Shown in pieces: positions 6,133-43,849 of a stretch of 64,000 nt of DNA (positions within the stretch are counted from its first letter, which is position 1; each line of letters starts with the position of its first letter). The notes below the pieces were generated by a model. That model did no database searches. It had not been told where the DNA came from and saw only the letters and a program-made list of their open reading frames with translations. Source of the DNA: Ferruginibacter albus (GTDB lineage Bacteria; Bacteroidota; Bacteroidia; Chitinophagales; Chitinophagaceae); the NCBI RefSeq assembly GCF_020042285.1, contig NZ_CP083388.1, positions 3,560,001 to 3,624,000 on the forward strand, written 5' to 3'. Both the position numbers and the translations under genes were made by a program.

Positions 6133-7482
6133 TCATTTCTTCCACATCTCCTGTATCTCTTCCAATGTTTTTCCTTTAGTCTCCGGAACCATTTTTAATA
6201 CAAAAGCAAATGTTATCCCTGATAAGATCATATATATTCCAAATGTTTTTGTTTCCTTTATTGACTCTATTAAAATGGGGAAGGTTTGTGATACTATGTA
6301 TACAGAAAGCCATAAAAAGAAAATAGCCAGCCCCATGGCTCTGCCCCGTATATGCGTGGGGAAAATCTCTGCAGCAACAACGAACGTTAATGGTCCTAAT
6401 GAAATTGCAAAGAAAGAAATGTAAGCTAGAATACCTGCCAATATCCAATAGCTTCCAGATATATGGCTATGAAAAGCCCAAGCTACTAAACCCAGGCAAA
6501 CAAACATTCCTGCAGAACCTATCAGTAATAATTTTTTTCTACCAAGCTTATCTACATATTTGATAGCAACCAATGTCATTAAAAAATTAATTCCACCTAC
6601 ACAAATAGTTTGTAATAATGCAGAAGACGAACCACTGCCGCCGGCTTTAAAGATTTCAGGTGCATAATACATGATGGCATTAATACCTGTTACCTGCGAA
6701 AAGATTGCCAGCAGTATTCCTATTATTAATGGCTTACGTAAGTTGCCTTGAAATAATTCAGTAAATGTTCCTTGCTTTTCTTCCAATGATGTTTTGATGT
6801 CGAGCATTTCTTTTAATGCGCCTTCTTCGCCATTCATCTTTACTAAAATAGCTTTAGCATCGTTCCATTTATTTTTAGAAGCCAGCCAACGAGGACTTTC
6901 CGGAGTTTTAATTAATAATAATAAAAAGATGATGGAAGGAATTACACCGGAGCCAAACATCCAACGCCAGCCATGTTCTATATTCCAAGCTTCATCATAC
7001 ATGCCCGCAATGGCTGCATTTACAAAATAGATGAGTAAGATGCCGATCACAATTCCCAATTGATAAATAGAGATAAGCTTACCACGAATATGGGGCGGAG
7101 CAATCTCTGAAATATACATTGGTGCTAAGATGGAAGCAATACCAATGCCTGCGCCACCAATAAACCGAAAAAAAATAAAACTGTCAATTCCACCAGGTAT
7201 CAATATCCCAATTGATGATATGGCAAATGCAATAGCAGATATTATCAATACCATTTTTCTACCAAACTTATCACTCAACACGCCTGCTACCATGGCGCCG
7301 ATCATGCAGCCGATCAATGCGCATGATGCAGCCCAGCCCTTCATTGCAGCAGAAAGCAAAAACTTTTTTTCAATAAAGCCAATCGCACCGGCAACTACTG
7401 CTGTGTCATAACCAAAGAGCAATCCTCCAACTGCAGCAATTACGGTGCATTGATAAATATATTTTAAGCTGTTGTTTGCCAT
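6133..7482 (-). CDS. MFS sugar:proton symporter (sugar porter family)
   Basis: 449 residues with about twelve hydrophobic segments. Sugar-porter signatures are present: GGLLFGYDTAVVAGA in TM1, DKFGRK in the TM2-3 loop, TPESPRWL before the central loop, GINAIMYYAPEIF in TM7, DKLGRKKLL in the second-half loop and VPETKGKTLEEIQ at the end. The closest types are XylE/GalP-like porters of the inner membrane. The start is 2 bases after the stop of the PMI-like gene, which indicates cotranscription. Here it probably imports the monosaccharide released by the PUL glycosidases, plausibly mannose. Confidence 0.93.
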   Translation of the reverse strand: MANNSLKYIYQCTVIAAVGGLLFGYDTAVVAGAIGFIEKKFLLSAAMKGWAASCALIGCMIGAMVAGVLSDKFGRKMVLIISAIAFAISSIGILIPGGIDSFIFFRFIGGAGIGIASILAPMYISEIAPPHIRGKLISIYQLGIVIGILLIYFVNAAIAGMYDEAWNIEHGWRWMFGSGVIPSIIFLLLLIKTPESPRWLASKNKWNDAKAILVKMNGEEGALKEMLDIKTSLEEKQGTFTELFQGNLRKPLIIGILLAIFSQVTGINAIMYYAPEIFKAGGSGSSSALLQTICVGGINFLMTLVAIKYVDKLGRKKLLLIGSAGMFVCLGLVAWAFHSHISGSYWILAGILAYISFFAISLGPLTFVVAAEIFPTHIRGRAMGLAIFFLWLSVYIVSQTFPILIESIKETKTFGIYMILSGITFAFVLKMVPETKGKTLEEIQEMWKK

Positions 7483-35298: not shown

Positions 35299-36030
35299 CT
35301 AACTTAGTCTACTGTTTAATATTTTTGAGCTTGTCAAGTATTTTTTTGTTGGATGGTATAAAAACAAACAGCTTCCGTTTTTAATGCAATCAATTATTTC
35401 TTTGCTGAATTCTAAAGGAACTGCGGGACAACCATAGCTTCTGCCTAAAAAACCTCTTTGCTGAATAAAATTTTCGCTTACATAATCAGACCCGTGCAAT
35501 ACTATCTGGCGCTTGTAGGCATTGTCATTAAATCCTTTTTCACAGCCTTTTAATCGTAATGAATACCCGTTGCCGCCAAAATAAGTGTCAGATGTTACAT
35601 AAAATCCAAGGCTGCTTTCGTGCGAATTGGTGCTGTTTGAAAATTTGTTTGCATAGCCTGCTCCCGAATTATGTCCATGAGCTACCAACGTATTAAAAAG
35701 AATTCTTCCGGAAAGAATATCAAGTACAAACAATCTTTTTTCTGAAGAAGGTTTGCTGAAATCTACAATGGTTATAATATTTGTTTTGCTTAATAATTTT
35801 TTTTCTGAAAGAAAATTGTATCCCTTCATTGCATAACTAAATGCTTCTTTTGTAAGCCCGCTGGCCTGCAAATTCCATTGATCATAAATTGATGAGATAT
35901 TGGTTACAACAGAAGGATTTGCTATTCCTTTTTCCTGCTGAAAAGCTCCTGCTTTAAAATCAGGGTTTGCAACAGAAAGCGCAAACATGAGATGTATTGC
36001 TGCAAAAGGGTAACAAATAAATTTCAACAT
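35299..36030 (-). CDS. Murein L,D-transpeptidase catalytic-domain family protein (YkuD_2)
   Basis: 243 residues with a signal peptide (ICYPFAAIHLMFALSVA). The catalytic region is H179-G-S-D ... S-Y-G-C201-P (IVLHGSDYVSENFIQQRGFLGRSYGCPAVPLE). These are the His and Cys of YkuD-like L,D-transpeptidases, and the upstream DFSKPSSEKRLFVLDILSGRILFNTLVAHGHNSG fits the YkuD_2 subfamily. It would crosslink or edit peptidoglycan, or attach lipoproteins, in the periplasm. It has its own promoter region, with 195 bases upstream before the exosortase operon. Confidence 0.9.
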   Translation of the reverse strand: MLKFICYPFAAIHLMFALSVANPDFKAGAFQQEKGIANPSVVTNISSIYDQWNLQASGLTKEAFSYAMKGYNFLSEKKLLSKTNIITIVDFSKPSSEKRLFVLDILSGRILFNTLVAHGHNSGAGYANKFSNSTNSHESSLGFYVTSDTYFGGNGYSLRLKGCEKGFNDNAYKRQIVLHGSDYVSENFIQQRGFLGRSYGCPAVPLEFSKEIIDCIKNGSCLFLYHPTKKYLTSSKILNSRLS

Positions 36031-36225: not shown

Positions 36226-36615
36226 TTAAGATCGATCTTCTTCCTGCGAAACAAAAACCCTATCCACTATCCAAAAAAGTATAAATGGAAATGGTGTTAG
36301 CAACAATAACAGTATCTGATCTTCAAAAAACAAATAAGCATCTTTTATTATAACAATTGATTTAAAATGCTTTTGGGAAAATGCTAACCCGTAATAAATG
36401 GCCCACAATCCTATATAAATAAAAAGATAGAATTTAAATATTTCTTTCGTTAAAAATTTGCGCATAAGCCAGGTGCCGGACACTATTACAAAAATAGCTT
36501 TTACTTTAATTAGCCAGGTGGTCTCAGTTATATATAAGTTTCTGATCAAGCTAAACGCAAACAAGCAAATGGTAAGCAAAATCATATATATAAAAAAAGA
36601 TCTAGCCGATTGCAT
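36226..36615 (-). CDS. Exosortase-associated small membrane protein
   Basis: 129 residues, mostly membrane: four hydrophobic segments (SFFIYMILLTICLFAFSL, WLIKVKAIFVIVSGTWLM, FKFYLFIYIGLWAIYYGLAF, ILLLLLTPFPFILFWIVD) and an acidic tail (SQEEDRS). No enzyme motif. It overlaps the exosortase gene by 14 bases, so it is coupled to it. Bacteroidota exosortase loci (XrtX class) often carry such an accessory membrane protein, so I assign it by context. Confidence 0.65.
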   Translation of the reverse strand: MQSARSFFIYMILLTICLFAFSLIRNLYITETTWLIKVKAIFVIVSGTWLMRKFLTKEIFKFYLFIYIGLWAIYYGLAFSQKHFKSIVIIKDAYLFFEDQILLLLLTPFPFILFWIVDRVFVSQEEDRS

Positions 36616-37144
36616 AAGTTTTTCCTTTACGTATAAATAAGAGCCAGCCTAAAAAAATATACAAGTACATTAAAATAGAAAAAACATAATGATGGCTTAT
36701 ATAAAACCAGGAGGGATGTTTAAGAGATATCCAATACAAGCACAAACACCTGACAACATTCGCCAGCATAATTGCGATGATCCCTGCAAAGCTAAAGATC
36801 AATTTACGTTTTAATTGAAAAGGCAAAACAATAATAAATCCAAGATATATAACCAATAGATCGAGTGCATTGCATTGATCTGCAATTATAAAAACTGCTT
36901 TTCCACCTTTCATAATGTATGCCGAAGAGAGCGAAGCATAATCTGTCCATGTATAGTGAGCAGTATTATTGTGGAGATTCATGCAAAATGTAACGATAGA
37001 TGTAATAATATCTGTAAGTATTTTGTCGGGAATCCTAGTAGGCTTAAGTACATAATGATAACCTACCAGCCAAATAATGGTTAAAGCTATCAGCTTAATA
37101 AAAAAAAACAGTACAGTATGATTTTTATTCTTCATCAAAGCCAT
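36602..37144 (-). CDS. Exosortase-family transpeptidase (XrtF/XrtX-like)
   Basis: About 180 residues from ATG 37144; 37135 is possible. Multiple membrane segments. The exosortase triad is in the right places: C91 in ADQCNALDLLVIYLGF, R132 in ANVVRCLCLYWI, and His151/152 in FYISHHYVFSILMYLYIF. Exosortases are integral membrane Cys proteases/transpeptidases that process C-terminal sorting signals of exported proteins. The short length and CNALxxL motif fit the Bacteroidota types. Neighbours: an accessory membrane protein that overlaps its 3' end, a small candidate cargo 128 bases upstream, and the giant surface protein beyond it. Confidence 0.85.
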   Translation of the reverse strand: MALMKNKNHTVLFFFIKLIALTIIWLVGYHYVLKPTRIPDKILTDIITSIVTFCMNLHNNTAHYTWTDYASLSSAYIMKGGKAVFIIADQCNALDLLVIYLGFIIVLPFQLKRKLIFSFAGIIAIMLANVVRCLCLYWISLKHPSWFYISHHYVFSILMYLYIFLGWLLFIRKGKTYAIG

Positions 37145-37222
37145 GATCAATGCAAATCAGTTACAAATTAATGCACTAAATGCCAATTACGGGTCATATT
37201 TATAATACTTAATAAAAAAACA

Positions 37223-37254
37223 AAGTGTGCCTTTAAATCAATAAAGGCACACTT
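37223..37254 (-). terminator. Strong terminator between the small cargo gene and the exosortase gene
   Basis: AAGTGTGCCTTT (37223-37234) and AAAGGCACACTT (37243-37254) form a perfect 12-base stem with an 8-base loop. On the minus strand TTGTTTTTTT follows. It ends transcription from the giant and small-cargo genes, so the exosortase needs readthrough or its own promoter. Confidence 0.9.
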
Positions 37255-37271
37255 CAACTTATTATTACAAA

Positions 37272-37514
37272 TTATGCTTTAGATAAGCGTTTTTTCTGAA
37301 TTTTTTTAAATACAATAAAGGCTAAAACTACACCTGCGGCAAGAAATATTAAATTCATTCCACTACTAAACGGAACCGCTAACGTATGGTTATCAGGGTT
37401 TTGCCCGTTGTTTGGCGGTGGTGGTGTTTGTGCCAAACTTAAAAAAGGCATAAGCAAACCACTAAGAGCCACAGTTGCATTAACTAAAAACTTCTTGCTT
37501 TTTACTTGATTCAT
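37272..37514 (-). CDS. Small exosortase-cargo-like protein (PID-CTERM-like)
   Basis: 80 residues from ATG 37514; a TTG at 37535 would add seven. Layout: signal peptide (FLVNATVALSGLLMPFLSLAQ), a short Pro/Asn-rich mature part (TPPPPNNGQNPDNHT), then AVPFSSGMNLIFLAAGVVLAFIVFKKIQKKRLSKA, a short motif, a transmembrane helix and a Lys/Arg tail. This is the tripartite design of exosortase sorting signals and resembles the P-I-D-G-G type, here written V-P-F-S-S-G. After processing, the mature part would be only about 15-20 residues. It starts 41 bases after the stop of the giant gene. A cargo or anchor role is inferred. Confidence 0.75.
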   Translation of the reverse strand: MNQVKSKKFLVNATVALSGLLMPFLSLAQTPPPPNNGQNPDNHTLAVPFSSGMNLIFLAAGVVLAFIVFKKIQKKRLSKA

Positions 37515-37555
37515 CGCTGTAAGGTTTAATGACAAAATTAATAATTTTTAAAATA

Positions 37556-40500
37556 TTATCTGATTGATATTTTTTGTGAATATATCTTTCCAGGTGCAGC
37601 AACTTCCAATTGATAAACACCTTTTGCTAAGCTTGGTACATTGATGCTTTGTGTAACAGTGCCTCCCGCATGACTTAAAGTTGTTTTAAACAATTCCTGT
37701 CCTGTTATAGTCATCAGTTTAAAGCCATATTTACCAGCAGGCTGGTTGATCATTTTCAATCCAATTTGACCTCCGGTGGCATAATAAGCCTGGATATCCG
37801 GAGTAATGCCACTTACATCTACTTTAACAATATCAGAGTATTTAACTTCTCCCGAAAGCTCTACGCTTTTTATACGATAGAAATTATTACCTGATTGAGG
37901 TGCAACATCTGTCCAGTTATAGCTAATTGTTCCGTTACTGTTTGTTTTTGCAGTTACAACGGCAGCTTGTGTAAAGTCAACCCCGTTTACAGAAGTTTCA
38001 ACTACATATTGTTTTACTCCTGTTTGTGCAGCAACATTCCACATAACCTGTACTGCAGCGTCTTTTTTAGCAGCGCTTACATTTACGAATGTAACAGGAA
38101 CCGGAGAAGATACATTATCAAATACAATTCTTAAGCGATTGCTTGCAGCTGAAGCAGGATTATTGGTTACAATAAATGACACTGTGCTTTTAGCTGATAC
38201 ACTTATTGCTGTACTTGTTCCCAAATAGATATCCTGCAAAGAAGCTGTTAGCCCTGCCATATTAAATCCGGTTGGATTAAATTCTAACTGATACGTTTGC
38301 TGTTTTAAATTGCTTAGTGCAAAGAAGATCGTATCTGTTTGCTCAATTGGCTGACGTCCTTCTATCCACAATTGTTTTCCATTGCTTGTTACACTTAAAT
38401 TTTCACCATCATTAGGAAATTTAATAACATCATTAACATCTACACTATTTGAGTATGAGCTGTTGAATGTAACCACATTCACATCAGACAGATTAGCTGG
38501 AGCTACTGTTTTTGCATATAGGCTTGTTACTAATTGTCCCGTTGCATCTTGACCGGTTGGTCTGAACACAGCATTTACCTGAGCTCCTACTTTACTGCTT
38601 TCTTTTAAAGTAACATTTCCTGTTGAACCTGCAGAATGAACAAAGAATGCCTGACCCGATTCAATATAAGTATTGGTAAATGGAGTAATCCCATCTCCAT
38701 AACTACCGCCACCCGGTACAGCCATCCATGAAGGAGATGTAGTAGAACTAAAGGTTTGATAGTGACCTAATGAACCACCTAACAACAATTTAGGATCCCA
38801 GATAATAAATGAATTATCAATAGATGCATCTTTCACAATACCTGAAAAATCGATACTGGATGCATATTTATTCCCCAATAAAGAATATTTGCCCGCCGGA
38901 ACTATTGTTGTTTGATCGCCTTCAAACAGGTCTCCGGTAGTACGCAACGTAGTTGAACTTACAGTAGATGTACTTGATGAAGGACCAATCGTTCTGTCAC
39001 CACGAACATATAAGAAATAAGCTTGCTGATCCGAAATTTGACCTAAAGTAGAAGTTAACTGATCCCAGGTATTATTAGCTTGATTATAGCTAACCATTGA
39101 GCTATACGTTTGTACTGCATCAAAGCCCTGGGCAGCCCAATCTACACTATTAGCAGGGCCGGCAGTTATAATAGTTCCATAGTTGGCAATAGGGGCTTGC
39201 CCTTCCTGCCATGATTCTTTTATGGTTTGTGTTGTTTGCGTAGGTATTGATAACATTCTCCACGCTCTTGTTCCACTACTTGGTATAAACCTTTCAACTG
39301 TTACAGCACCGGATACATAAGTATTTCCTGAACTGTTTGCTTTTACAAAAGCAGTTCCGTTATCATCGGATTTTAACGTTAACAAGCCGGCGGTAGTTAA
39401 TACACCGGTTGTAGTTCCGGTATTTTTAACTTCTACACTTCCGGTAGAAGCAATATCCAATGCTGTACCCAAAGTAGCCGTAGCACTTGTATTCAGCACC
39501 AGATTTTGTAATACAGCAGCACCGCTTGTAAAGCTTAGGGTTGGATTAGTGCCGCTATTCGCTAATGTTAAATTAGAGATAGATGAGCCGCTTAAAGTGC
39601 CGGAACCAGAAATTGTTCCATTTATTGTTAATGTTTTAGAACCTATTCCGAATGTAGTTCCTGATTGTAAATTTAATGCTCCTACAGTTACGTCAACCGT
39701 AAGTACGGGATAGTGTGAAGAGCCTGATGCAATAACAACATCACTTCCGCTTGATGGAGTTGTACCATCAGCCCAGTTACTGCCCGTATTCCAATCTGAG
39801 CTGGTATTACCAGTCCATGTTTCCAATGCAATAGTAAATGGAGTAGCTGAAGATGAGGCTGAATTAAAGTTTGCATCCGCAGCTACAGTAGCTGTAACGC
39901 TATAAGTTCCCACATTTGTAGGTTTGGTAGCGCTAGGCCCGTAGGTAGTACTGCCCGTTCCTGAATAGCTATAAGTAACGGCACCTGCTGATCCTGTTAC
40001 GGATGATGTAGATGGTCCTTGCTGAGATCCATTGTAGGTAAAGCTTGTTGTACCTGTAACAGAGATTGTTGAATTTGCTTTAGCTAAAGTAATAACCAGT
40101 GTTTTTGATCTGGTACCCCCTGCGTTCGTAGCACTGATGGTTACATTAAAAGTACCTCCCACACTTGGAGTACCAGTAATTTGTCCGTTAGAAGTATTAA
40201 TACTTAAACCGGTTGGTAATCCTGTTGCATTGTAGCTAGTAGGAAAATTGGTAGCTGTAATAGTATAGGTAGAAAATGCTACCCCATTTGTACCGCTTGC
40301 AGTTAAAACACTGTTTGTTACTACAGGAGCAGGAGTTACAGTAACGGTGTAATTATCAAAATCACCTGTACGACCGCTGGTGCTGCTATAATTTAATGCA
40401 AATCCGAATGTTGTCATTGCAGAACTTGCATAGGTGCTGTCAAGTGCAGAAGAAACCTGTTGAGTAGTTGCTGCAGTAGGGTCACCAAATGCACTTCCAT

Positions 40501-43500
40501 TATCTGTATCGTATACATTCCATAAACCAGATCCGGGATCATAAGTAACTTTAAAATCCATCCAGTCGGTACCACCGCTTGAGCCAAATGAACTACCAAT
40601 CGTTGTAACATTGGCAAGTCCACCTGTATAGTGAACCAATTGCCATGTTTTGTTGCTTATACTTATTAAGGCATATCCGTTACCGCTAGCCGTGGCAGGA
40701 CTAATAGTGAGAGGTGTTGATGTTGTTCCACACAAAACAGTTCCAATAGCAGAGCTCGAGGAGCTAAAGCTTCCTCCTGAAGAACTGCTTGTTCTCATAT
40801 TAAATGTCCAGGTTATTAATCCCGGGTTAGCAGACAAGGCTGTATTAAATGGTGATCCATATGTTGATAAAGTACCCGAAACCAGGCTTCTTCCCGAAGC
40901 TCCTCCACTACCGTTAGTAATTTGAAGATCTCTCACAGAACCGGTTCCTGCCGCAGTAGCAGAGGCTCCCGATGAAAAGCTGCCGGTATATGTCATTGTT
41001 GGAGTTCCTCCAGGGCTGTAAGTAGTATTCGCCCTGTTAAAATTATCTGTAAATACGGCTATTGGGCCAAAATTAGTAGTTACTCCCGCACTTACGTTTG
41101 ATGCATCAGAACTACCGGTTGTATTTACTGCAAACACTCTGAAATAATAGGTGGTAGCTCCTGCTAACCCAGTAATTGCCTGTGATGTATTAGAAGATGA
41201 AATACTTGTTATTGATGAAACTCCTGTTTGGAAAGTATTATCTGTGCTGTATTGAACGGTATAAGTAAAACTTGCGGAACCACCTGATGGAGCACTCCAA
41301 TGTGCTGTAAAGCCGGTAGTGGTTATACCATCCCCTACACCTGCTGTTGGCGCATTCGGTAATGTTGTAAACGTCAGATCACTACCATAAGCGGTTCCTG
41401 CCGTATTTGTAGCATATGCTCTTACATGATATGCTGTATTTGCCGTTAAAGAGCTTATAGCGCTTGTAAATGGAGAAGATGTTCCATCACTTGTTTTAGT
41501 GCTCAATGCTGTAGTAGGATTTGCACTTGCATCCCATACTACGCCCTCAGCACTAACAGCAGCACCTCCTGTTGCAGTAACAGTTCCACCACTTGATGCT
41601 CCTGTTATTGTAATTGAAGAGAGAGCAGTTGTAGTTACAGTGGGTGTTGTTGCTAATGTAAGAACTCCTGCGCTTGTAGACGATGCAGCAGAAGTTCCTG
41701 TTGCATTTACAGCAAACACTCTGAAATAATAAGTTGTTGCAGGATTAAGCCCTGATATGCTTTGTGATGTATTAGAAGATGAAATGTTTGTAATGGATGT
41801 AACTCCTGTTTGGAAGGTATTATCTGTGCTGTAATCTACGGTATAAGTAAAGCTTACAGAACCGCCGGATGGAGCACTCCAATGTGCCACAAAGCTGTTA
41901 AAAGTTTGTCCATCGCCAACACCTATGCCAGGGGCATTAGGTAAAGTTGAAAAGGTTACTTCATTTCCAAAAGTTGTTCCATCTCCATTGCTGCCATAGG
42001 TTTCTGCATAATAAAGAGTATTGGCGGTTAGTCCGCTGATGCTGCTTGTAAATGCTCCTGTAGTACTACCTGTCGGTCCATCGGTTGTAAAATTGGTGCC
42101 TGAACTTATTGTTTCAGTGCCTGTAGAAGTGCTCCATGCAATACCGGAGGCGGTTATGCTGGAAGAGCCGGTAGAAACAATAGTTCCATTACCTGTTGCG
42201 GATGTTGTTTGTACCGATGACGCAGCCTGAGTGCTTACCGCCGGAGGCGAAGAAGAGGGAATGAGTACTCCTGCACTTGTTCCTGAAGCTCCAGAAGTGC
42301 CGGTTGTATTCACTGCGAACACTCTTGCATAATATGTGCTGCCAGGGGTTAATCCAGAAATAGCTTGAGATAAATTAGACGATGAAATATTTGTGATAGA
42401 TGAAACTCCTGATTGGAAGGTATTATCTGTACTATAATCAACAGAATAAGTAAAACTTGCTGACCCACCCGATGGAGCTGTCCAATGTACTGTAAATCCA
42501 CCATTGGTTACATTATCCGTCGTACCAATTCCAGGTGCATTCGGTAAAGTGGTAAATGATGCATCGGCAGCTAATGCCACACCTGCGCCATTTACTGCAA
42601 ATGCAGATGAATGATAAAGGGTATTAGCTGTTAAGGAAGAAAGAGATGATGTATAAGATCCTGTTCCACCGGCACCATCAATTATTTTACCTCCTCCTGT
42701 AGTATTGCTGGTATCTGTAATTGTGCCTGTACTATATATTAATCCTCTTCGGGTAACGGTCCCACCTCCTGCAGAACTTATATTACCGCCGCTGCTTGCA
42801 CTTGTTGTGTTTATACTGCTTGCATTTGTCGTAGTTATGGAAGGAAGTACAATTATTGTTTGTGTACCGGTAGCAGATGTTGAACCTGTGGCCGTAGGTG
42901 AGCCAGCAGACCAACTTAGATTAGCATTGGGAATAATGCCGGCTGTAATCGTTCTTCCTGAAGTTGGAGTGGCTGCAGCTGTTGCAGTAATATAAAAATA
43001 AACAGTTGTACTATTAATAGCTTGTGATAAGCTTCCAAAAGTTTCATTTGCACCGGTTCCGGTTGCTGCAGGAGTAATAGACTTAATTGAAGTTGCACCG
43101 CCAAAGTTACTGCCGGTAGTATTTGCCCAAAGCTGTAAGCTGCTTATATCACTTGAAGTATAATCGCCGGTAGTAGGTAATATAACCTGTGATAAAGTAG
43201 TGCTGCCGGTAGTAGTAATTTTAAAGCTATCGATCACCTTCGTAAGTCCTGCTCCTATTTGTCCTGCTGCAATGGCAGAACCATTGGTAGCCAATGTTGC
43301 ACCGGGGGTAGGCGCATTAATTGTAACAGCAATTACTGCTTCGCTGGAACCACCGCTTGCACCTGCAAAAGTGATCGTGATGGGACCGCCGCTACCATCA
43401 TAAGCGAAATCAACCTGATCATTTGTACAGGCATTTGCAGTTCCTGTTGTGGCCTTTGTTGTACTGTTCTTATTATTACTAACTGTAACTGTTCTGGCAG

Positions 43501-43849
43501 TTGACGGCTGCTTAATCGTCCAGGAAATAACGCCACACTTAGTAGCTATAAGTGTCCACGATTTTCCGGATGAGGTATAGGAAACACCTCCTGTTGTAAC
43601 TGAACTACAGTTTGTAAGTGTTGTACTGTAGCTGGTTCCGGAAGGAGTTGTGATATAACTTGGTTGCGCTGCTGTGAAATTTATAGCAGTAGGAAAGGTA
43701 TTTAATTGCGCACGTACATTTCCTATACTAAATAAAAAAGCCATCATCAACAATCCAATCCCTTTAGCAACATAAATACAAAACCGGTTGCCGGCATTTT
43801 GTTGAATAGCATTTTTAAATAACAAGCATTGTGGTACTAATTTTTTCAT
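37556..43849 (-). CDS. Giant FN3-repeat surface protein with T9SS C-terminal tail
   Basis: 2097 residues with a long N-terminal signal region (KGIGLLMMAFLFSIGNVRA). Then come beta-rich T/S-rich domains and three or four fibronectin-III repeats in the LPNAPGIG...VHWTAPSGGS-FTY-VDYSTDNTFQ pattern, spaced about 194-201 residues, each with an alternating domain (SSGGTVTATGGA). Next are a putative Ig domain (VTNSVLTASGTNGVAFSTYTITA), an MBG-like domain (TTSFTYNGSQQGPSTSSV), a WTGNTSSDWNTGSNWADG segment and a globular C-terminal half. The end (GVYQLEVAAPGKIYSQKISIR) is a T9SS type A sorting domain. It would be secreted and held at the surface, probably as an adhesin or matrix protein. Upstream of the exosortase cargo gene. 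Confidence 0.9.
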   Translation of the reverse strand: MKKLVPQCLLFKNAIQQNAGNRFCIYVAKGIGLLMMAFLFSIGNVRAQLNTFPTAINFTAAQPSYITTPSGTSYSTTLTNCSSVTTGGVSYTSSGKSWTLIATKCGVISWTIKQPSTARTVTVSNNKNSTTKATTGTANACTNDQVDFAYDGSGGPITITFAGASGGSSEAVIAVTINAPTPGATLATNGSAIAAGQIGAGLTKVIDSFKITTTGSTTLSQVILPTTGDYTSSDISSLQLWANTTGSNFGGATSIKSITPAATGTGANETFGSLSQAINSTTVYFYITATAAATPTSGRTITAGIIPNANLSWSAGSPTATGSTSATGTQTIIVLPSITTTNASSINTTSASSGGNISSAGGGTVTRRGLIYSTGTITDTSNTTGGGKIIDGAGGTGSYTSSLSSLTANTLYHSSAFAVNGAGVALAADASFTTLPNAPGIGTTDNVTNGGFTVHWTAPSGGSASFTYSVDYSTDNTFQSGVSSITNISSSNLSQAISGLTPGSTYYARVFAVNTTGTSGASGTSAGVLIPSSSPPAVSTQAASSVQTTSATGNGTIVSTGSSSITASGIAWSTSTGTETISSGTNFTTDGPTGSTTGAFTSSISGLTANTLYYAETYGSNGDGTTFGNEVTFSTLPNAPGIGVGDGQTFNSFVAHWSAPSGGSVSFTYTVDYSTDNTFQTGVTSITNISSSNTSQSISGLNPATTYYFRVFAVNATGTSAASSTSAGVLTLATTPTVTTTALSSITITGASSGGTVTATGGAAVSAEGVVWDASANPTTALSTKTSDGTSSPFTSAISSLTANTAYHVRAYATNTAGTAYGSDLTFTTLPNAPTAGVGDGITTTGFTAHWSAPSGGSASFTYTVQYSTDNTFQTGVSSITSISSSNTSQAITGLAGATTYYFRVFAVNTTGSSDASNVSAGVTTNFGPIAVFTDNFNRANTTYSPGGTPTMTYTGSFSSGASATAAGTGSVRDLQITNGSGGASGRSLVSGTLSTYGSPFNTALSANPGLITWTFNMRTSSSSGGSFSSSSSAIGTVLCGTTSTPLTISPATASGNGYALISISNKTWQLVHYTGGLANVTTIGSSFGSSGGTDWMDFKVTYDPGSGLWNVYDTDNGSAFGDPTAATTQQVSSALDSTYASSAMTTFGFALNYSSTSGRTGDFDNYTVTVTPAPVVTNSVLTASGTNGVAFSTYTITATNFPTSYNATGLPTGLSINTSNGQITGTPSVGGTFNVTISATNAGGTRSKTLVITLAKANSTISVTGTTSFTYNGSQQGPSTSSVTGSAGAVTYSYSGTGSTTYGPSATKPTNVGTYSVTATVAADANFNSASSSATPFTIALETWTGNTSSDWNTGSNWADGTTPSSGSDVVIASGSSHYPVLTVDVTVGALNLQSGTTFGIGSKTLTINGTISGSGTLSGSSISNLTLANSGTNPTLSFTSGAAVLQNLVLNTSATATLGTALDIASTGSVEVKNTGTTTGVLTTAGLLTLKSDDNGTAFVKANSSGNTYVSGAVTVERFIPSSGTRAWRMLSIPTQTTQTIKESWQEGQAPIANYGTIITAGPANSVDWAAQGFDAVQTYSSMVSYNQANNTWDQLTSTLGQISDQQAYFLYVRGDRTIGPSSSTSTVSSTTLRTTGDLFEGDQTTIVPAGKYSLLGNKYASSIDFSGIVKDASIDNSFIIWDPKLLLGGSLGHYQTFSSTTSPSWMAVPGGGSYGDGITPFTNTYIESGQAFFVHSAGSTGNVTLKESSKVGAQVNAVFRPTGQDATGQLVTSLYAKTVAPANLSDVNVVTFNSSYSNSVDVNDVIKFPNDGENLSVTSNGKQLWIEGRQPIEQTDTIFFALSNLKQQTYQLEFNPTGFNMAGLTASLQDIYLGTSTAISVSAKSTVSFIVTNNPASAASNRLRIVFDNVSSPVPVTFVNVSAAKKDAAVQVMWNVAAQTGVKQYVVETSVNGVDFTQAAVVTAKTNSNGTISYNWTDVAPQSGNNFYRIKSVELSGEVKYSDIVKVDVSGITPDIQAYYATGGQIGLKMINQPAGKYGFKLMTITGQELFKTTLSHAGGTVTQSINVPSLAKGVYQLEVAAPGKIYSQKISIR
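41100..42545 (-). repeat. Three large tandem FN3-type coding repeats of about 580-600 bp
   Basis: The word GATGGAGC is found at 41286, 41868 and 42471 in the same context, giving periods of 582 and 603 bases (194 and 201 residues). The surrounding sequence is similar between copies, for example the stretches coding TVDYSTDNTFQTGV and NISSSNTSQSISGL. Duplication inside a surface gene. Confidence 0.8.

Follow-up and report, generated by a model that had tools for sequence, protein, structure and literature searches.

One known exosortase system is that of PEP-CTERM proteins and EpsH, in which a tripartite C-terminal tail accompanies the exosortase and the genes are tied to exopolysaccharide (PMC1569441). 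According to a study of one such protein, PepA, its overexpression in an rpoN1 mutant moves polysaccharide from the soluble to the bound fraction (PMC9850573). For Bacteroidota, a Flavobacterium johnsoniae study reports that mutants lacking xrtF or its neighbour Fjoh_1449 share a row of the phenotype table with mutants lacking porU or porZ, and leaves the substrates of its exosortase to future work (PMC10936215). Here we consider a locus of Ferruginibacter albus (Chitinophagaceae) at positions 36,226 to 43,849 of a 64,000-nucleotide stretch of contig NZ_CP083388.1 (3,560,001 to 3,624,000 of the forward strand; hereafter the window, in whose coordinates positions are given unless stated). Its four genes, all on the minus strand, encode in transcription order a giant protein bearing a sorting domain like those of the type IX secretion system (T9SS), a tiny protein with an exosortase-type tail (the cargo), an exosortase and an accessory membrane protein.

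Each part belongs to a known kind (XrtX-like, PID-CTERM-like or T9SS); for the pairing of a T9SS giant with an exosortase-type tiny protein no paper was found in the open-licence literature searched by title or abstract opening. As in the XrtX/PID-CTERM system (models NF046081 and NF046080), XrtX is the best NCBIfam model for the exosortase, the tiny cargo consists of a signal peptide, a short linker and a tail, and an accessory gene lies downstream. Unlike that system, the window exosortase reaches 106.9 bits against a cut-off of 170, and the cargo has LAVPF[SD]xx in place of PIDGG and no PID-CTERM match. The F. johnsoniae XrtF pair (Fjoh_1448/1449) likewise joins an exosortase to an adjacent associated protein, but the window exosortase scores only 58.7 bits on the XrtF model (cut-off 90). 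The PEP-CTERM/EpsH and PepA systems resemble ours in having an exosortase, a tripartite tail and a polysaccharide link, and differ in that here there is no PEP motif and the cargo is paired with T9SS giants.

On the T9SS side, the genes of SprB and SprF are neighbours. This adhesin and its PorP-like partner offer the likeness of a T9SS surface protein with a partner of its own, and such partners have been proposed, in one published account, to serve the anchorage of type B T9SS proteins (PMC9143113); there, however, the partner is an outer-membrane barrel, while here it is a tiny peptide and the tail is type-A-like. The anchoring of type A proteins by PorU to anionic lipopolysaccharide (A-LPS) is closer in its C-terminal domain, and the genome has putative PorU2 and PorV2 genes: two putative PorU2 proteins of 1602 and 1716 residues (837 and 831 bits, cut-off 450) are encoded on either side of a PorV2 gene (519 bits, cut-off 325) at C1:3026000-3040000 (L349). 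Our case differs in that the canonical PorU model is not reached, the best score among the proteins scored at L349 being 146 bits against a cut-off of 420 (E 1e-19 in a separate search), and in the addition of an exosortase peptide. Among the open-licence papers listed in a literature search, two mention PorV2 and none PorU2, and judged by their titles neither of the two bears on this putative arrangement.

Pairing of tiny exosortase-type proteins with T9SS giants

The F. albus genome is a single contig of 3.76 Mb. The cargo has three paralogues in it (E 3e-24 to 5e-11), and therefore is not a chance open reading frame (ORF); a fourth match, at C1:1093457 (E 0.1), has an internal stop and was discarded. 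The paralogues, at C1:800393, 3166770 and 2798866, lie directly behind T9SS-tailed giants of 2513, 1438 and 1894 residues, respectively. A PID-CTERM protein of the same genome lies directly behind a fifth giant (2278 residues), before two genes that by eye resemble wza and wzc. Five of the five tiny tail proteins thus follow a T9SS giant directly and at short distance. The chance of this is about 2 in 10^8 if one assumes some 3,300 genes and independence, an assumption that paralogy breaks. The C-terminal domains of all five partner giants have an HA[GA]G motif in common.

Does the arrangement extend beyond this genome? A first set of 40 PID-CTERM loci (L-numbers denote loci, and G-numbers genomes, of our samples) was made up of 18 of the 21 loci of genome G232 and one locus from each of 22 genomes, chosen for long contigs out of the 98 other PID genomes in the family sample. 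The PID-CTERM gene follows a gene matching Por_Secre_tail (E 0.01) in 35 of the 39 loci that have an upstream gene, whereas the controls, taken two places upstream and one place downstream in these loci with genes below 100 residues excluded, gave 12 of 63. Repeating the comparison with a profile made from 30 other T9SS tails found in the window genome gave like counts (36/39 against 12/63). In a collection of named genomes, the best 80 of 271 confirmed PID-CTERM matches gave 78 loci, three of them without a readable ORF and 63 with more than 700 bases upstream; 53 of these 63 follow a T9SS-tailed gene (controls, 18/85). When the 14 loci overlapping the first set are removed, 12 of them hits, the count among these best matches is 41 of 49. 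The eight misses include five loci with genes of wza and wzc size downstream and one with an exosortase.

Outside the family, 10 of 20 loci taken one per genus follow a T9SS-tailed gene (L261, where a short ORF on the opposite strand intervenes, is excluded from this count), compared with 7 of 39 second-upstream and first-downstream neighbours. Three PID genes in these loci directly precede an exosortase, and two others precede a T9SS gene. Nine additional loci, picked for longer PID frames, yielded five that follow a T9SS-tailed gene. The gap between giant and tiny genes has a median of 58.5 bases (n=96, from overlapping sets). The pairing of giant and tiny protein is real and recurrent. The initial annotation, made from the letters of this stretch alone, had proposed two coupled sorting systems here; what stands of that claim is the genomic linkage of T9SS giant and exosortase-type cargo, found in five of five cases in this genome, at the majority of the PID loci read in relatives and at about half outside the family, while the anchoring of the giant by its peptide is something we infer.

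PID matches are, among those listed, nearly all in frames shorter than 200 residues. Fusion of a PID tail to a large protein was considered as a direct link between the two; the sole long frame among the matches listed, of 973 residues in G452 (L340), resembles by eye a membrane protein that ends in PIDGE, and has no T9SS tail. In another family (L344, L346 and L347), the membrane segment of the tiny PID protein is preceded by an additional N-terminal stretch containing CxxC-like pairs, which by eye looks as if a cytoplasmic zinc-binding domain had been attached. At a number of loci (L005, positions 6827-7054 of that locus; L304; L302; L124; several of L178-L252) the PID-CTERM gene is followed by genes of wza size (about 270 residues) and wzc size (about 800 residues). 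In three genomes of the genus, a second exosortase lies some 24 to 38 kb from this order; two of the three are typed as XrtY-like, and the third is assigned by position only.

The company kept by PID-CTERM proteins was also surveyed at the level of whole genomes. Among 294 genomes of the family, 88 have both PID-CTERM and an exosortase, 11 PID-CTERM alone, 35 an exosortase alone and 160 neither. In a sample of 392 genomes of the phylum, all at least 90% complete, PID-CTERM occurs in 65; every one of these has an exosortase, and 63 match a T9SS-sortase model. Viewed from the other side, PID-CTERM occurs in 63 of 116 genomes with both exosortase and T9SS-sortase match, in 2 of 28 with an exosortase but no such match, in none of 190 with T9SS only and in none of 58 with neither system. 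Since at most two candidates were scored per genome in the T9SS-sortase search, and 38 of the 306 positive genomes lie under the curated cut-off, the sortase negatives and weak positives are soft. In one family of the phylum (f18; G311, G319, G326 and others), exosortases stand in frames of about 275-380 residues, in genomes with no T9SS-sortase match and no PID-CTERM.

The locus and its relatives

The four ORFs that the initial annotation listed are all found at their positions, on the minus strand and in its order. The giant (37556-43849, 2097 residues) has the fibronectin type III repeats ascribed to it (fn3, 98.8 bits). Its T9SS tail is a weaker matter, falling below cut-off in protein scans (18.4 bits against 23 in NCBIfam, 19.6 against 27 in Pfam) and above it in the whole-genome search (25.7 bits, cut-off 23). 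The last 112 residues (37559-37894), which include the HA[GA]G motif, are predicted to form a β-sandwich (mean predicted local distance difference test score, pLDDT, 86.8). Structural matches to this domain are mostly generic immunoglobulin-like folds, and a solved T9SS substrate domain, 8glk_D, ranks 14th (E 0.0034; template modelling score, normalised to target length, 0.75).

The cargo (37272-37514) runs for 80 residues from an ATG at 37514; if it started at a TTG lying 21 bases further upstream, it would have 87. The signal peptide, proline-rich spacer, VPFSSG motif, helix and basic tail that had been described in it can all be recognised by eye. In detail, a predicted signal peptide is followed by a Pro/Asn-rich mature peptide of about 21 residues, the LAVPFSSG motif, the helix and the basic tail, an architecture that, read by eye on alignments, fits the PID-CTERM type. 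The predicted mature peptide, QTPPPPNNGQNPDNHTLAVPF (37368-37430, with the signal peptidase site placed by eye), is the same in the paralogue L294, which stands behind another giant. Neither Pfam nor NCBIfam matches the cargo, even at E values as high as 1; in an alignment that includes it (A4), 17 of 18 members match the PID-CTERM model NF046080 at E 0.1.

The exosortase (36602-37144, 180 residues counted from an ATG) belongs to the exosortase superfamily (TIGR04178, 47.3 bits, cut-off 23). Residues C91, R132, H151 and H152, proposed earlier as catalytic, are invariant in an alignment of 19 sequences. A sequence search for relatives among solved structures found none. The gene end is overlapped by that of the accessory membrane protein (36226-36615, 129 residues). 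Accessory proteins are divergent, with only 3 of 49 exosortase loci matching by tblastn; a [ST]PxP[FYI] motif, near the C-terminus in the window protein, occurs in 24 of 37 of them against 0.06 expected by shuffling, the motif having been picked after the sequences were viewed. Farther downstream lies an L,D-transpeptidase gene of the YkuD_2 family (35299-36030, minus strand; 224.5 bits). It was set aside as a part of the system, as no relative was found in the 49 exosortase loci searched.

Between cargo and exosortase lies a hairpin resembling an intrinsic terminator (37256-37221, minus strand), with 15 pairs followed by a T run, a fold z-score of -7.3 and none of 200 shuffles as stable. Given this hairpin, giant and cargo on the one hand, and exosortase and accessory gene on the other, are probably two transcription units. 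The genome has one other exosortase, in a cluster that by eye resembles polysaccharide genes; it is closest to XrtY (138.4 bits, cut-off 160). The window exosortase is most likely the one that processes the LAVPF-type tiny proteins of this genome.

With the window exosortase as query, matches came from 45 of 147 family genomes, at 64 places, of which 41 loci, the window included, were read. An ORF of 100-200 residues directly follows the exosortase in 37 of the 39 read loci with room for one, and a tiny tail protein directly precedes it in 13 of the 41, so that the small protein expected beside exosortases in relatives is indeed present there. The complete four-gene order recurs: it occurs in 5 of the 37 loci with 1500 bases upstream (the window, L037, L041, L043 and L066). 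It is also seen in G155 (L348) and in a one-contig congener, G241 (L298), where a giant of at least 2963 residues, cut by the locus edge, is followed by a 92-residue cargo with AVPLTQWM, an exosortase and an accessory gene. A complete locus of the Bacteroidota kind was found in a metagenome-assembled genome titled Verrucomicrobia (L244, JAFEGT010000109.1; title unchecked), possibly on a misbinned contig. In L227, L229 and L235 (the last from Agriterribacter humi strain YJ03), giant, PID gene and exosortase stand in line without the accessory gene, and the exosortase of L235 is XrtY-like. A locus dedicated in the strict sense is nevertheless not supported: of the four paralogous cargos, three are encoded at a great distance from the exosortase, the terminator-like hairpin splits the locus into halves, and in most relatives the pairs of giant and cargo are found away from the exosortase.

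Across the tiny proteins, the linker from signal peptide to motif has a median length of 11 residues and is net acidic in 99 of 104 distinct proteins, both values coming from a rule-based parse with some rows wrong; the predicted mature peptide is about 10-20 residues long. Linker identity averages 0.56 within genomes (12 genomes) and 0.30 between them, and that of the signal peptide 0.45 and 0.29, respectively. The within-genome values range from 1.0 in CAUJDL, 0.97 in JAGOUF and 0.65 in G232 to 0.31 in JAAFHG and 0.30 in CAILAF. Between the window cargo and L294, the paralogue nearest to it, 21 mature residues are identical, while signal peptide and tail have changed; over the peptide there are no nonsynonymous differences on 48.3 sites and nine synonymous ones on 14.7 sites. 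For all 18 tiny genes of G232, compared in non-independent pairs, the ratio of nonsynonymous to synonymous differences per site (pN/pS) is 0.24 in the linker, 0.08 in five motif codons, 0.26 in the helix and 0.66 in the signal peptide. Taken as they stand, these sequence comparisons indicate protein-level constraint on the motif and, to a lesser degree, on the linker.

What the peptide may do

As a joint reading we tentatively propose that the exosortase-processed peptide is a small adaptor for attachment or matrix, serving its partner T9SS giants on one shared surface. Its genomic support comes from the recurrent pairing, from the presence of exosortase and T9SS in the same genomes, and from a motif that is conserved together with part of the peptide; these suggest that two export-and-anchoring systems cooperate on the same surface structure. 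The genes of wza and wzc kind behind PID genes and the phenotype row shared by the F. johnsoniae xrtF, porU and porZ deletions also speak for it, and type B T9SS proteins with PorP-like partners offer a precedent. In outline, giant and tiny protein would probably come from one transcript. The giant would be exported by Sec and then by T9SS, and the tiny protein would pass through Sec, its C-terminal helix keeping it in the inner membrane. There the exosortase would cut it near VPF, export and cleavage being what is known of such families, and so free a peptide of about 20 residues with a probable pyroglutamate cap at its N-terminus and some group at its C-terminus. The capped peptide, moved to the outer face, would hold or organise the partner giants, probably tying them to surface glycan or glycolipid.

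A more specific version has the exosortase make a capped anchor unit that is then joined to the giants, perhaps by PorU or PorU2, as two sortases in series. In the model of one review, PorU can take short peptides as acceptors (PMC10202324). Joining at the free N-terminus of the peptide is made less likely by the peptides themselves, as 86 of 104 distinct ones begin with Gln and three contain Lys (the parsing rule admitted only some residues at the start); a published account holds that such an N-terminal Gln is usually converted to pyroglutamate in this phylum (PMC10653852). We think two sortases in series very improbable. If the scheme were true, a genome would single out some of its T9SS adhesins and tag them with a peptide of its own, often common to several copies.

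A doubtful but serious alternative is that the peptide is itself a component of matrix or exopolysaccharide. It would be co-expressed with giant adhesins because both go into one matrix, and the two would neither touch nor be joined. The link of exosortase systems to exopolysaccharide (PMC1569441) and the effect of PepA on bound polysaccharide (PMC9850573) speak for it, as do the second exosortase in its polysaccharide-like cluster (judged by eye) and the PID genes that stand before wza/wzc-like genes. Taken alone, it leaves unexplained why most of the copies read follow a T9SS-tailed gene and why PID-CTERM is rare in exosortase genomes without a T9SS-sortase match (2/28). The short gap and the great length of the giants would also suit a tiny protein acting before export, in the inner membrane, where it might escort the giant to the T9SS or set its pace until the exosortase released it. 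This is unlikely: the genome has long T9SS proteins, up to a frame of 4074 residues, that have no tiny partner, and escorting would not account for the exosortase that each of the 65 PID genomes in the phylum sample has.

Two further readings appear to us very improbable. Should the exosortase release the peptide as a secreted signal, alike within a genome and different between genomes, its tiny size and the higher linker identity within genomes would follow; copies are, however, unlike one another in some genomes (CAILAF and JAAFHG), and 18 copies behind giants in G232 would be odd for a pheromone. The neighbourhood might also be incidental, the tiny gene being carried along as giant genes duplicate, for which we see just as little chance. 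The giants of one genome are paralogous, as in G232, and a fraction of PID genomes in the family have no exosortase found; against this stand the pairing in other families, the retention of the motif while synonymous sites diverged, and the co-occurrence of PID-CTERM and exosortase across the phylum.

Several observations weigh against the adaptor reading itself. The pairs may have spread by duplication, and shared descent keeps the loci from counting as independent cases; the pairing outside the family is also uneven, with 7 of 7 loci in one family (f24) and 3 of 13 in the rest. No exosortase was found in 11 of the 99 PID genomes of the family, five of these 11 being at least 90% complete. 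Only five of the 93 T9SS-tail matches in the window genome have a tiny partner, which rules out a need for one by T9SS giants in general. Even among the 30 C-terminal domains closest to those of the partners, 25 are without a convincing tiny gene by eye; short candidates behind four of these 25 (L313, L330, L334 and L337), passed by a loose filter, were discarded by eye. Constraint on the peptide is only moderate when all four cargos of the genome are compared (pN/pS 0.49 in the linker, 0.33 in the motif and 0.78 in the signal peptide), and constraint on motif and linker may serve exosortase recognition alone or a later partner. The window cargo falls short of the PID-CTERM model (NF046080, cut-off 26) and is the only one of 109 in which VPF is followed by Ser and not by Asp; its own paralogues keep Asp. 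With the T9SS tail (in protein scans), the cargo and the XrtX-like exosortase all under cut-offs, the parts in the window could represent a private dialect or relaxed constraint. Finally, the phenotype row of the F. johnsoniae xrtF mutants is also that of two mutants outside both systems, Fjoh_0334 and Fjoh_0651 (PMC10936215), and so is not specific.

The pairing links the exosortase peptides of Bacteroidota to T9SS giants as candidate partners. If the two are indeed partners, each system offers a way into the other: the giants reveal the purpose of the peptides, which in turn may reveal how some giants stay at the surface.

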